Shown: piece after piece, positions 18,242 to 59,038 of the stretch
Numbering within the stretch: position 1 is the stretch's first letter
Layout: each line of letters starts with the position of its first letter
Source: Nitrospiraceae bacterium
GTDB taxonomy: Bacteria > Nitrospirota > Nitrospiria > Nitrospirales > Nitrospiraceae
DNA: 64,000 nucleotides
Assembly (NCBI GenBank): GCA_019637075.1
Contig: JAHBWI010000004.1
Span: 124,001-188,000, forward strand
Direction: 5' to 3'
Translations under genes and position numbers: made by a program
Notes under the pieces: model-generated
Database searches by the model: none
The model's input: only the letters and a program-made list of their open reading frames with translations
What the model was told of the DNA's origin: nothing

Positions 18242-18318
18242 GGCAGCACCTGCTTCACCCCTTGTCGGGTGTCACCGCCGTTGCAAAGGCTGCGTGCATC
18301 GTGCACACTGGGGCCGCC

Positions 18319-18792
18319 ATGCGATCCTGGCGCGACACACTCCTGGCATCGATTCTGCTGCCGGCCCTGTGCTGGACCGGTTCCGCATTCGCCGACGAAG
18401 CCACCTCGCGGTTCGTCCTGCAATTCGACGGCGAAGCGGTGAAGGACCAGAAAACCGGTTTGATCTGGGAGCGGGAACCGGATTACGTTTTCGACGTGTG
18501 GGACAAGTCGGTCGCGCGCTGCGCCACCAAGACCGTGGGCGGCCAGAAGGGGTGGCGAGCCCCAAGCATTGAGGAGATCAAGACGCTGGTCGATTCCGAG
18601 CAGCAGGATCCGTCGCTCCCACAGGGACATCCCTTCCGCAATATCCGGTCCGGCATCTACTGGACTGCGACGCCGCATCCCACCGACGATATCGTGGCTT
18701 GGCAACAGAGCTTCTTCTCCGGTCAGGCCGTGACCGATCAGAAGTCGGGTACGCGCCGTCTCTGGTGCGTGCTCGGGCAGGTCAACCGGTAA
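18319..18792 (+). CDS. exported DUF1566-type protein
   Basis: 157 residues from ATG 18319 (an in-frame GTG at 18301 is possible). The signal peptide ends after SAFA (about residue 25). The mature part has the DUF1566 (Lcl C-terminal-like) pattern: FVLQFDGEAVKDQKTGLIWE, GWRAPSIEEIKTLVD, GIYWTATPH and a final RRLWCVLG. This domain occurs in secreted or lipobox proteins of many bacteria and has no firm function. Two cysteines remain (ARCATK and LWCVL), so a disulfide is possible. It sits between the M50 pair and kdpD. Confidence 0.75.
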   Translation: MRSWRDTLLASILLPALCWTGSAFADEATSRFVLQFDGEAVKDQKTGLIWEREPDYVFDVWDKSVARCATKTVGGQKGWRAPSIEEIKTLVDSEQQDPSLPQGHPFRNIRSGIYWTATPHPTDDIVAWQQSFFSGQAVTDQKSGTRRLWCVLGQVNR

Positions 18793-18949
18793 GCTTTCCC
18801 AAACCCCGTTCACCTTTTCATCGGATTGTTGCTCCGTTCTTACATCCAGGTCGATAACCTCAGACCGCGTTTCGCGGGTACCCCGCATTGACGTCGTATC
18901 CACCCCTTCATAGAATGAAGCCGACCAGACACCGGATGCGGGGATTTGT

Positions 18950-21652
18950 ATGGATGTCACAGGCCCTGAACCCGATAGGCTGTTCAAGCGGGTGCAAGCC
19001 GAAAAGGCCGAGCGCATCCGCGGAAAGCTGAAGATTTTTTTCGGCGCGACGGCCGGCGTCGGTAAGACCTACGCGATGCTTCAGGCCGCGCATGAGCAGC
19101 AGGCCGACGGCGCCGACGTGCTCATCGGCGTGGTCGACACGCACGGGCGCGCCGACACCGCGGCCCTGGTGAGCGGGCTCGAACTCTTGCCGCTTCGCTC
19201 CGTCGAGGGCCGGGGAAAGACGCTCGCCGAGTTCGACTTGGACGCGGCCCTCGCCCGTCGCCCCACGATCATCCTGGTCGACGAACTGGCGCATACGAAC
19301 GCGCCGGGCCTACGGCATGCCAAGCGCTGGCAGGACGTGCAGGAACTGTTGAGCGCCGGCATCACCGTCTACACCACCGTCAACGTGCAGCATCTGGAGA
19401 GCTTGAACGACGTGATCACACAGATCACGGGCGTTCGTGTACGCGACACCGTCCCCGATTCCGTGCTCGAACGGGCGGATGACGTGGAATTGATCGATCT
19501 CCCGCCCGACGATCTGCTTCAGCGCTTGAAAGACGGCAAGGTCTATGTGCCGGAACAGGTGCAACACACCCTCCAGAAATTCTTCGCCAAGGGCAATTTG
19601 CTCGCATTGCGCGAGCTCGCGCTGCGCCGGACGGCGGAACGGGTCGACCAGCAAATAGAAGTGTACCGCCGTGACCACTCGGTGGTGCAGACGTGGCCGG
19701 CCACCGAGACGATCATGGTCTGTGTGAATCTCAAACCGCGGGGGCCGAGGTTGGTCAGGGCCGCGTGCCAAATGGCGGCCGGATTGCACGCCAAGTGGAT
19801 CGCCGTCTACGTTCAAACGCCTCGTCACCTGACGTTGTCCGACGAGGAACGAAGCCGCGTGGTGGAGACGCTGCGGTTGGCCGAAAAGCTCGGGGCCGAG
19901 ACGGTAACCTTGACCGGTGACCAAGTCGCGCAGGAACTGCTCACTTTCGCCCGCAGCCGGAACGTCACCAAAATCATCGTTGGAAAACCCGTGCGTCCCT
20001 GGTGGAAAGAATGGATCTACGGCTCCGTCGTCTCCGAGCTCGTACATTGCAGCGGCGACACCGACATCTATGTCATCACGGGAGAGGCGGGGGAAGGCCG
20101 TTCCCTCGTCAGGCGGACTTTTCAGCGGACCAGCAATTGGTCCACCTACGGAGCGGCCGGCCTCGGGGTGGCGCTGTCCACGACCGTGGCTTGGGTGATG
20201 TTTCCCTCTTTCGGGTCGGCCAATCTCATCATGGTGTATCTGCTGGGTGTGGTATTGGTGGCGGTTCGGTGCGGGCGTGGGCCTTCGGTGCTGGCGTCGT
20301 TGTTGAGCGTCGCAACCTTCGATTTCTTTTTCGTGCCGCCCTACTTCTCGTTCGCGGTGACGGACATTCAATACCTGCTCACCTTCGCCGTCATGCTCAG
20401 CGTGGCCTTGGTGATCAGCAATCTCGCGGTACGGATCGGACGGCAGGTGGAAACGGCGCGATACCGCGAACGGCGCACCGGCGTGCTCTATGCCATGAGC
20501 CGTGATCTCGCCACCCATCGCGGAGCCTCGACGCTTGCCAACGTGGCGGCCAAGCATCTGCGTGACGTCTTCGATAGCCAGGTCGCGATGTTCCTGGCCG
20601 ACCGGGAGCGGCGGTTGCAGTTGCAGCGAGGGGAACAGTTGTTCTTCGAGTTCGATCCGACGGAAATGGGTGTCGCGCAGTGGGTCTACGACCACGGCGA
20701 GCGGGCGGGGCTGGGGACGGATACGTTACCGGAATCCAATGCCCTGTATCTTCCGCTGGTCGGCTCGACCGGCGCCATCGGAGTGGTGGCTGTCCGTCCC
20801 GAACAGCCTCAGCTGTTGTTGGATCCGGAGCAATTGCATCTGCTCGAGTCCTTGGTCAACCAAACCGCGCTGGCGATCGAACGTACGAATTTATCGGAAG
20901 AAGCGCAGCGCGCCCATGTCCAAGCGGAAACGGAGCGCATGCGGAACGTCCTTCTCAGCTCGGTGTCTCATGACTTACGCACGCCGCTGGCCACAATTAC
21001 CGGCGCGGCCAGCGACCTGTTGGACGACTCGGGACGTGTCGATGCCGCCTCGAAGCATGAACTGGCGCGGTCCATCTACGAGGAAGGGGACCGGTTGGAT
21101 CGGTTGTTGCGAAATTTGCTGGAGATGATGCGGCTCGAGACGGGAGCGGTGCAGTTGAAGCGGGAGTGGATTCCGTTGGACGAAGTCGTCGGCGCGGCTG
21201 TCGGGCGGTTGAGAAGCCGATTGCGGGACCATGCCCTCGACACCAAGATCCCACCGGACCTTCCGCTGGTCAATGTGGATACGGGGTTGATGGAACAGGT
21301 GGTGATCAACCTAATGGAGAACGCAATCAAGTATGGGCCGCCGGGGACACCGATCGAACTCTCCGCATCCGCCGGGGATCGTGAAGTTGTGGTTGAGGTG
21401 GCGGATCGGGGGCCTGGCTTGCCGCCTGGTGAAGAGGAGCGTATCTTCGAAAAATTCTACCGGCTCCAGCGGAGTCGCGAGGGCGGGGTGGGGCTGGGAT
21501 TGACGATTTGCCGGGGCATCGTCGAGGCACACGGCGGACGTATTTGGGCTGAGAACCGGGTAGGCCGGGGCACGATGTTCCGATTCACGATTCCACTGAC
21601 CGAGCGACAGCCGGCTGCCGCTTCCGAGTCGATGGAGGTTCGTTCTCTGTAG
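18950..21652 (+). CDS. kdpD: sensor histidine kinase KdpD
   Basis: 900 residues with the full KdpD layout. The N-terminal sensor has Walker [10 protein letters not shown] (about 32-40) and [16 protein letters not shown] Usp-like domain follows (about 250-375), then four membrane helices of DUF4118 (about 400-500), a GAF-like segment, the phospho-accepting [16 protein letters not shown], and HATPase boxes [30 protein letters not shown] and [19 protein letters not shown]. KdpD senses potassium limitation or osmotic stress and phosphorylates KdpE to induce the KdpFABC pump. No kdpFABC lies in this window, and the expected kdpE directly downstream is only a fragment. KdpD here must act on another regulator, or is itself becoming obsolete. 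Confidence 0.95.
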
Positions 21653-21694
21653 GTCCGTCAGGTCGGCAGCATCCGGCCGTTCCGATTCGATTCA

Positions 21695-21898
21695 ATGGCC
21701 CAAGCTGCCTCGGTATTACTAGAGAACGATGAGCCGGACCTGAGACGATTTGTTCGTCCGTCATTCCCGGCGAACGGTTTCCGGCTCATCGAATTGTCCG
21801 TGGGCAAGGAGGGGTTTCGGCGGATTGCGGCCCTGTTCTGGAATATGTATCCCGTCTTGATACAGCTCGGTGTACAGTCAGTCTCGTGGGGAGCGTGA
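21695..21898 (+). pseudogene. kdpE: kdpE remnant (truncated response-regulator receiver)
   Basis: A 67-codon frame just after kdpD starts MAQAASVLLENDEPDLRRFV and continues with SFPANGFRLIELSVGKEGFR. This aligns by eye with the first ~40 residues of KdpE/OmpR-type receivers (VLxVEDEPxxRRFLR, ANGYRV). The following stretch, YPVLIQLGVQ, sits where receivers have PDLVLLDLGLP, and the phospho-accepting Asp has become Gln. The rest of the receiver and the DNA-binding domain are absent; the frame ends in the start of the porin gene. Position and resemblance together make a decayed kdpE the best reading. Confidence 0.7.
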
Positions 21899-23112
21899 GG
21901 GCGTCAGGCTGGAAAAAGAAGGGGCGGTGTCTTCTCTGGGCCGCGGCGGTTGCCTCGCTGATGGCGGGCACGGCCGTCGCTGTCGAAGTGCCGTCCCCGG
22001 CGGAAGGCCAAGGCACACCGACGTCCAGTGTCGCGGGAACAACAGAGCCGGCGAGCCTCTGGCATTACGGCGCCTATGCCGATGTCTCCTATGTCCTGAA
22101 TTTCAATTTTCCCGAAAACCATCTATGGCGGAGCCGTTCGACCGCCGTGCGGCACAATGAGCTGGCCCCCAACATGGGGCTGGTCTATGTTCGGAAGGAC
22201 ACAACCACCGACTCACGTTGGGGCATGGAGTTCGGCCTCCAGGGTGGGTACGACTCCAAGAACTTTGCATTTCTGCAAGGTGAGGGCAAGGTCGACGGCG
22301 CGGATACCTGGCGCCATCTCCATCGGGCGAACGTGTCGTATCTGGTCCCGGTGGGCAACGGCCTGACGATGACGGCTGGTCTCTTCAACAGTTTGATCGG
22401 CTACGAATCGCTCTACGCCAAAGACAATGCCAACTACACCCGTTCCTGGTTGGCGGACAATACGCCCTATATGATGTTCGGCGTCAGCGCCAAGTATCCG
22501 GTCAACGAACAGCTCACGGTCACGACCTTCGTCATTAATCGATACTCCCACCTGGCCTATACCAACGATCAGCCGTCCTATGGGGGACAATGGGCGTACA
22601 AGGTGACGCCGAGGTTGACCCTGACGCAGACGGTCTATGCCGGGCCTGATCAAACCAATACGTCACTCGAATTTTGGCGCCTGTACGGCAACCACATCGT
22701 GGAGTGGAAGGGCGAAGACCTGACGGTGGCGTTTTCCTACGATATCGGGACGGAAAAAGTGGCGAACAGACCGGGTCAGCCGCGAGCCTTTGTGACCGGT
22801 GCCAATGTGGTGGCCCGTTGGCACATCAGTGGACCCTGGGCGGTCGCATTCCGGCCAGAAGTCTACTGGGACCGGAACGGCCGCTGGACCGGCAACGAGC
22901 AGTTCGTGAAGGCGATGACGTCGACTGTGGAATACAGGATTCCATACGGCTGGACGAACACGATGCTCCGGCTCGAACATCGGTGGGATGAATCGACGGG
23001 GGCGGGAGGGGGATTCTTTAGCCGCGGAGAGATTCAACCGGGCGTGATCGGCCTGACGCCGAACCAGCATTTGGTGTTGCTGGGAATCCTCTGGACGTTC
23101 GACAGCCCCTAG
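21886..23112 (+). CDS. outer-membrane beta-barrel porin (OmpL-like, bbp2 type)
   Basis: 408 residues. The signal peptide is about 15-33 (CLLWAAAVASLMAGTAVAVE). The mature part has alternating aromatic/polar strands (YGAYADVSYVLNFNFPEN, WGMEFGLQGGYDS, TLRLEHRW-like near the end) and ends in a Phe-containing strand (LLGILWTFDSP), as in barrels. The N-terminal DVSYVLNFNFPE pattern resembles the putative porin-2 (OmpL-like) family. Its place beside kdpD suggests a potassium-uptake role. The start is the GTG at 21886, overlapping the kdpE remnant; no good ribosome site is seen, so the exact start is uncertain. Confidence 0.8.
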   Translation: MGSVRASGWKKKGRCLLWAAAVASLMAGTAVAVEVPSPAEGQGTPTSSVAGTTEPASLWHYGAYADVSYVLNFNFPENHLWRSRSTAVRHNELAPNMGLVYVRKDTTTDSRWGMEFGLQGGYDSKNFAFLQGEGKVDGADTWRHLHRANVSYLVPVGNGLTMTAGLFNSLIGYESLYAKDNANYTRSWLADNTPYMMFGVSAKYPVNEQLTVTTFVINRYSHLAYTNDQPSYGGQWAYKVTPRLTLTQTVYAGPDQTNTSLEFWRLYGNHIVEWKGEDLTVAFSYDIGTEKVANRPGQPRAFVTGANVVARWHISGPWAVAFRPEVYWDRNGRWTGNEQFVKAMTSTVEYRIPYGWTNTMLRLEHRWDESTGAGGGFFSRGEIQPGVIGLTPNQHLVLLGILWTFDSP

Positions 23113-58641: not shown

Positions 58642-59038
58642 ATGATGCTGCAACCTGAACACCGCCCGGACGAAGCCGGGCACATTCTGGTCGTGGACGA
58701 CCAGATCTCAATTCGGGAGATGATGAGTGAGTTTCTGAGACACCTTGGCTACGGCGTGACGCTGGACGAGGGCGGGCATCGGGCGATTGCCCTCTATCAG
58801 CAGCGGCCGGTTCGATCTCGTGTTGCTGGATGTCGTGATGCCGGGCATGACCGGGATCGAAGTATTTCGTGTGATTCGGAAGTTCGATCCCCAAGCAAAG
58901 GTGATTCTCTTCTCGGGGCAACCGTTCGCTCAGCCGTATCGGGAACTGCTCGACGAGGGGCTCCGCGGTTTCATCAAGAAGCCATTCGACTTGGATGATC
59001 GATCCAGCCTTTTGGCGGCACAGCTCCATCAGCGGTGA
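58642..59038 (+). pseudogene. response regulator receiver with a frameshift
   Basis: The frame from ATG 58642 reads AGHILVVDDQISIREMMSEF and LGYGVTLDEGGHRAIALYQQ, then loses sense at about 58808. Another frame resumes exactly with FDLVLLDVVMPGMTGIEVFR, then IRKFDPQAKVILFSGQ and LRGFIKKPFDLDD, ending at 59038. Removing one G from CGGCCGGTTCGATC would restore a normal single-domain receiver of about 130 residues with phospho-Asp (LLDVV), Ser and Lys (IKKPF). So it is a recent one-base insertion or a sequencing error. The start at 58606 (GTG) is also possible. Confidence 0.8.

Follow-up and report, generated by a model that had tools for sequence, protein, structure and literature searches.

In Escherichia coli, the sensor KdpD has recently been shown to be two kinases in one (PMC11018627): its N-terminal part is a serine kinase for KdpB, which it phosphorylates at Ser162, beside Glu161, and its C-terminal part is a histidine kinase for KdpE. 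In species lacking kdpE, the same source reports that about 90% or more of the KdpDs are without the kinase half. KdpD/Usp-only forms (the Deinococcus type in that source; NF038185) likewise have no KdpE of the usual kind, and in these forms the histidine kinase is missing and the pump is kept. Signaling by KdpD to other regulators has also been described. In E. coli, KdpDE and PhoBR show mutual non-cognate phosphorylation (PMC5458449), and in Francisella tularensis SchuS4 an orphan KdpD, encoded intact beside a kdpE pseudogene, is reported to phosphorylate QseB/PmrA (PMC6584805). An orphan KdpD next to a kdpE pseudogene is thus already known from Francisella, where kdpB and kdpC are listed as present and kdpA as a pseudogene.

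Here we describe a kdp locus from an environmental relative of Nitrospira, an organism unlike Francisella, in which kdpA, kdpB and kdpC are all gone and kdpE is reduced to a stub. Its KdpD has the same domain order and motifs as E. coli KdpD, yet its genome has neither KdpB nor KdpE. In contrast to the KdpD/Usp-only forms, the histidine kinase was kept and the pump was lost. The KdpD of this locus therefore breaks the pattern described in PMC11018627, in that the kinase half is kept when both substrates are gone. Searches of open-licence papers showed no report of a KdpD without both KdpE and the pump; the new element would be the loss of both substrates while both kinase parts look maintained.

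Results

The analysed stretch, hereafter the window, comprises 64,000 nucleotides (bases 124001-188000 of contig 4). The genome assembly amounts to 4.06 Mb in 22 contigs and is rated 100% complete and 4.94% contaminated. The kdp site lies deep within a 522-kb contig and contains the following features:

18301-18792, + strand: Lcl_C (DUF1566-like) gene, PF07603 match, directly 5' of kdpD
18888-18916, + strand: promoter-like TTGACG-17-TAGAAT, 33 nt 5' of the kdpD start
18950-21652, + strand: kdpD, full-length orphan sensor kinase (Pfam domains, motifs, constraint)
21695-21898, + strand: kdpE stub, first ~58 residues, decayed, without DNA-binding domain (KdpE alignment)
21886-23112, + strand: BBP2/OmpL-like porin, intact (PF07642; neighbour positions in relatives)

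Besides the Lcl_C gene, a gene for an M50 peptidase lies 5' of kdpD. In two relatives (L034 and L039), the Lcl_C gene is found upstream of kdpABC; standing now directly before kdpD, it marks the site of the missing pump genes. The promoter-like sequence is a weak candidate for a promoter of kdpD's own, given that one sequence of this type was observed in the region and 1.2 were expected by chance. When the 157 nt before kdpD were compared with DNA upstream of kdpA or kdpD at the loci of 18 relatives, no consistent similarity was found (single outliers were L050, z 6.8, and L046, z 4.8), and the idea of conserved promoter DNA before kdpD was dropped. On the other side of kdpD, a gap of 42 nt separates it from the stub frame, and the stub's stop codon overlaps a possible in-frame GTG start of the porin gene (GTGA at 21895-21898). 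The porin matched PF07642 over residues 62-397 with 194.2 bits (cut-off 26.2), which identifies it as a BBP2 porin and agrees with the initial annotation, where it had been called an intact OmpL-like porin. A blastn search with the stub and the DNA upstream of the porin gave no matches.

The initial annotation had also described KdpD as full length with all motifs, and this was borne out. The protein has 900 aa and contains, in order, the KdpD domain (PF02702, 325 bits), Usp, the DUF4118 membrane part, GAF_3, HisKA and HATPase_c. The N-terminal domain carries both a Walker A motif (G-X5-GKT; GATAGVGKT at 32) and a Walker B motif (DE at 111). In the kinase half, every catalytic motif checked was present, namely SHD at 673, NAIKY at 791, DRGPG at 819 and GLGL at 848. 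By its domains and motifs, KdpD is thus predicted to be both a serine and a histidine kinase. By far the best model was the 895-position NCBIfam equivalog PRK10490 (KdpD), which the full-length protein matched along the length of the model with a score of 944.7, below the cut-off of 1123; the orthologue call is founded on Pfam, synteny and the tree, not on PRK10490. The score against NF038185, a KdpD-like non-kinase sensor, was 363.8 (cut-off 550), and HisKA and HATPase are present. The closest KdpDs belong to records named Nitrospira sp. A search of this genome found no diadenylate cyclase, and control of the Usp domain by c-di-AMP is unsupported here.

The frame downstream of kdpD (21695-21898) encodes 67 aa and aligns with KdpE residues 1-58 at 38% identity (E 2e-9); among solved structures it matches E. 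coli KdpE best, though weakly (E 0.025). It matched no Pfam or NCBIfam model, either for a receiver or for a DNA-binding domain, and ends at about residue 58, so that it has neither a receiver with its phospho-Asp nor the DNA-binding domain of a KdpE. The earlier reading of this frame as only the start of a KdpE, with no DNA-binding domain, holds; the recognisable part extends to about 58 residues by KdpE alignment rather than the ~40 first given. In the alignment, Asn replaces Glu of the acidic pair and Gln stands in the phospho-Asp column. The change of phospho-Asp to Gln, which the initial annotation had stated outright, is probable rather than certain, since the alignment around that column needs a 2-residue insertion. 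No resumption of kdpE sequence was found downstream of the stub, which rules out a kdpE continuing 3' of it. We conclude from these alignments that the stub is the remnant of a decayed kdpE of which about three quarters has been lost. Another receiver-like stretch was seen in the window at 58814-59032, with 30% identity to KdpE residues 50-121.

Neither the pump nor a second KdpE was found elsewhere. No kdpABC fragment was detected within the 64-kb window, as the initial annotation had said of kdpFABC. In the whole genome, PF02702 occurs in one copy, KdpA has no match, and no kdpB orthologue exists (the best-scoring KdpB match is only 31% identical). Besides the stub, there is no KdpE orthologue genome-wide; the best other regulator is 39% identical and scores best with the PhoB model. 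These searches rule out a kdpE or a pump elsewhere in the genome, and the orphan state proposed for KdpD, which an intact kdpE or kdpFABC at another site could have overturned, stands. TrkH, Kup, KdpA and Ion_trans_2 were all not found in this genome (the Kup search covered this genome only). The Trk-less state is not unique in the family, with TrkH found in 2 of its 37 genomes, this one counted.

To these absences might be opposed an assembly or sequencing error that dropped kdpE and kdpABC, and the 22-contig assembly with its 4.94% contamination lends this some support. Such a slip is nevertheless highly improbable, because decay affects even the 58 residues that precede the break, and a mis-join would leave a normal kdpE there. 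Moreover, the site lies far from any contig end, and no kdpA or kdpE orthologue occurs anywhere in a genome rated complete.

Orthologues of KdpD were found in 13 of 60 related genomes, at 66-76% identity; the other matches listed were other histidine kinases. In 11 of these 13, kdpA, kdpB and kdpC lie upstream of kdpD and kdpE lies downstream. In the remaining two, contig ends cut the locus; one of them has kdpE on a contig that starts inside kdpD. In a separate collection of nine Nitrospira loci (L045-L053), one of them apparently on the same contig as a relative already counted, all nine had matches to KdpA, KdpB, KdpC and KdpE, KdpA being a fragment in one. In many relatives the porin lies close to kdpE, with varying orientation, and in several it is the downstream neighbour of kdpE. 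Because relatives have the order kdpA-B-C-D-E, often with this porin next in line, we read the window as a reduced kdp operon, that is, kdpABC-kdpDE-porin minus kdpABC and most of kdpE. Across the Nitrospira loci (L032-L053), several neighbours are shared with the window, and the pump and kdpE are complete where contigs allow; genome G017 may lack the pump. At its locus (L043, 953-5997), kdpD is followed by a kdpE of which the contig end leaves only the start. The 3.3 kb before kdpD are free of kdp genes, a TIR-domain gene lies upstream, and the genome has no KdpA; G017 thus seems to have retained kdpD and kdpE but not the pump.

In a survey of 395 genomes of the phylum, the KdpD domain was found in 108 and KdpA in 104, with 99 having both (a hand count from two lists). 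Nine genomes, including that of the window, have KdpD without KdpA. Among the other eight, four are accounted for by assembly gaps, their kdpC or kdpB lying at the edge of a contig, two have a double-KdpD protein on short contigs, and G303 and G017 complete the set. In G303 (L139, 7323-10786), kdpA and kdpB are missing from the middle of a contig on which kdpC, kdpD and kdpE are intact; its relative L033, with a 98% identical KdpE, has kdpA and kdpB complete. Only the window's genome was seen to lack kdpE as well. These cases suggest, short of proof, that loss begins with the pump and ends with kdpD.

Several variant kdp arrangements were also observed. The double-KdpD proteins (L148, 6787-9003; L149, 6421-8658) are of ~740 aa, have two KdpD serine-kinase domains and Usp-like regions with no histidine kinase match, and are encoded beside kdpB; in one family of the phylum (f22), most of the genomes that have KdpD show such two-domain matches. 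In G015 (L146, 6505-18692), three kdpA and two kdpB stand in tandem upstream of one kdpD, one set being ordinary (82-86% to L033) and one divergent (KdpB 59%). Five loci (L054, L074, L075, L081 and L091) have a full-length KdpD and no kdpE immediately downstream; pump genes lie upstream in four of them, and L081 has only 335 bases there. In G011, which is absent from the list of genomes with a KdpD domain, kdpA fragments in more than one frame (C5, 159546-160053) probably represent a decayed kdp locus.

Rates of change were estimated from 22 KdpD sequences, leaving out the Nitrospira loci L044, which is partial, and L052, which shares its contig with L042, as well as the more distant L054-L124. 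Branch lengths were fitted on a fixed KdpD tree topology, in which the window joined L036 at 0.58 support. The terminal branch of the stub measured 1.82 substitutions/site, or 38.8% of its tree, compared with 0.18-0.22 in the three orthologues printed. For KdpD, the terminal branch was 0.256, or 7.6% of tree length. By part, the share was 9.8% for the serine kinase (ASK), 8.1% for Usp, 6.2% for the membrane part, 4.9% for GAF and 8.5% for the histidine-kinase part (DHp 8.6%, CA 8.2%); the branch of the histidine-kinase half was 0.41, and those of its neighbours were 0.37 and 0.42. Correspondingly, dN to relatives was 0.49-0.61 in the stub, compared with 0.17-0.27 in KdpD; because dS approaches saturation among these species, timings are rough. 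Neutral drift was then simulated at 0.38 substitutions/site, a rough estimate equal to the stub's excess. At this level kdpD acquired a mean of 16.6 stops and stayed open in 0 of 100 runs; the real kdpD has none. Taken together, branch lengths, dN and the stop simulation indicate that kdpE has been dead for long and that KdpD is undrifted in either kinase half.

At columns invariant elsewhere, KdpD carries 19 changes in 329, the highest of the 22 sequences (next, 16/327 and 16/326), which suggests that it is mildly fast. In HisKA, 3 of 26 otherwise invariant columns are changed, versus a maximum fraction of 0.08 in the other sequences; the changes are A to G, K to R and A to T, none of them in the His box. 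In the leave-one-out count for KdpE, the presence of the stub leaves the other sequences with fewer invariant columns (10-11 versus 21).

The same simulation bears on the stub frame, which might be a leader coupling porin translation to the kdpD transcript. An open frame 42 nt behind kdpD whose stop overlaps an in-frame porin GTG would fit such a leader. That GTG start is putative, however, and a 58-codon neutral remnant stayed open in 34-40% of runs, so that the open state of the stub calls for no explanation. A leader function, although compatible with the other explanations, is very unlikely.

Discussion

The pump genes and most of kdpE have been lost from this genome, the stub has decayed, and all parts of KdpD are under normal constraint. 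We propose that kdpABC was deleted cleanly from a kdpABC-kdpDE-porin locus in this lineage, that kdpE lost everything past about codon 58 and its remainder decayed, and that the porin, formerly next to kdpE, was thereby brought beside kdpD. Selection would have maintained KdpD as an orphan serine/histidine kinase, and its histidine-kinase half would respond to K+ or ionic state by phosphorylating a non-cognate regulator of the OmpR family. KdpD has probably come to control something other than the pump and KdpE; the account as a whole, up to another OmpR-family regulator as the target, we hold to be about evenly poised. That KdpD signals to another regulator was one of two possibilities offered in the initial annotation, and it is the one favoured here, the histidine-kinase half being constrained as in relatives and the output itself being predicted. 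Another OmpR-family regulator is favoured because of the cross-talk between KdpDE and PhoBR in E. coli and between KdpD and QseB/PmrA in Francisella.

The genome has four full-length KdpE matches, of which three have an intact receiver and DNA-binding domain. The first, PhoB-like and closest to KdpE, and the second, CopR-like, each have their own adjacent kinase; the third lies beside Wzz-type polysaccharide genes, in a 10-kb stretch whose ORFs include no kinase. The fourth (L153, 4499-5215, minus strand), also PhoB-like, was dropped as a partner, having a DNA-binding domain and no Pfam receiver. Because cross-phosphorylation between KdpD and PhoB has been described in E. coli, the PhoB-like regulator is the first guess and most plausibly the partner. 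Several points count against the account. Each of the two regulators closest to KdpE is already encoded next to a kinase, and KdpD has an excess of changes at otherwise invariant columns. Moreover, by eye, the residues after the phospho-accepting His show no obvious change from relatives, so there is no sign in this stretch of a re-targeting of KdpD.

KdpD could instead be a relic. If the decay of kdpE dates from long ago, when the phosphorylation of KdpB still required KdpD, and the pump was lost recently, the decay of kdpD might simply be pending. The loss of the pump cannot be dated, the slight excess of KdpD changes at conserved sites fits such a course, and G303 illustrates pump loss with kdpC, kdpD and kdpE remaining. 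On this course, however, the histidine-kinase half should have decayed along with kdpE, and its branch is far from that of the stub; no trace of kdpABC is left either. We consider the relic explanation unlikely.

The second possibility in the initial annotation was a kinase-independent role for the N-terminal and Usp domains. A role for the N-terminal part stays in consideration, but not as kinase-independent, given that the domain is described as a serine kinase (PMC11018627) and its Walker motifs are intact. Restated, KdpD would be kept for a serine kinase whose substrate is now another P-type ATPase instead of KdpB, and the histidine-kinase half would serve for sensing or dimerisation. Besides the Walker motifs, the constraint on the KdpD-domain region is in favour of this, and the genome encodes four other P-type ATPases with DKTGT, three with TGES and one with TGET. 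The phosphorylated serine of KdpB presumably lies in the TGES stretch seen in a relative's KdpB. TGES is general to P-type ATPases, however, and is weak evidence for that reason. Furthermore, the histidine-kinase half is intact and not relaxed, when species without kdpE mostly lack it (PMC11018627). A serine kinase re-employed in this way is unlikely. More doubtful again is a re-employment of both halves, in which the serine kinase would modify the serine of TGES in another P-type ATPase and the histidine kinase would serve a regulator outside the Kdp system; if true, KdpD would be an ion-state kinase that stands on its own, without need of the Kdp pump.

The preferred reading remains that of a reduced kdp locus whose orphan KdpD is under selection and may act on another OmpR-family regulator. 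Its interest is moderate, for a single lineage is concerned and orphan kinases are common. This genome nevertheless offers a natural test of KdpD outputs beyond the Kdp pump.
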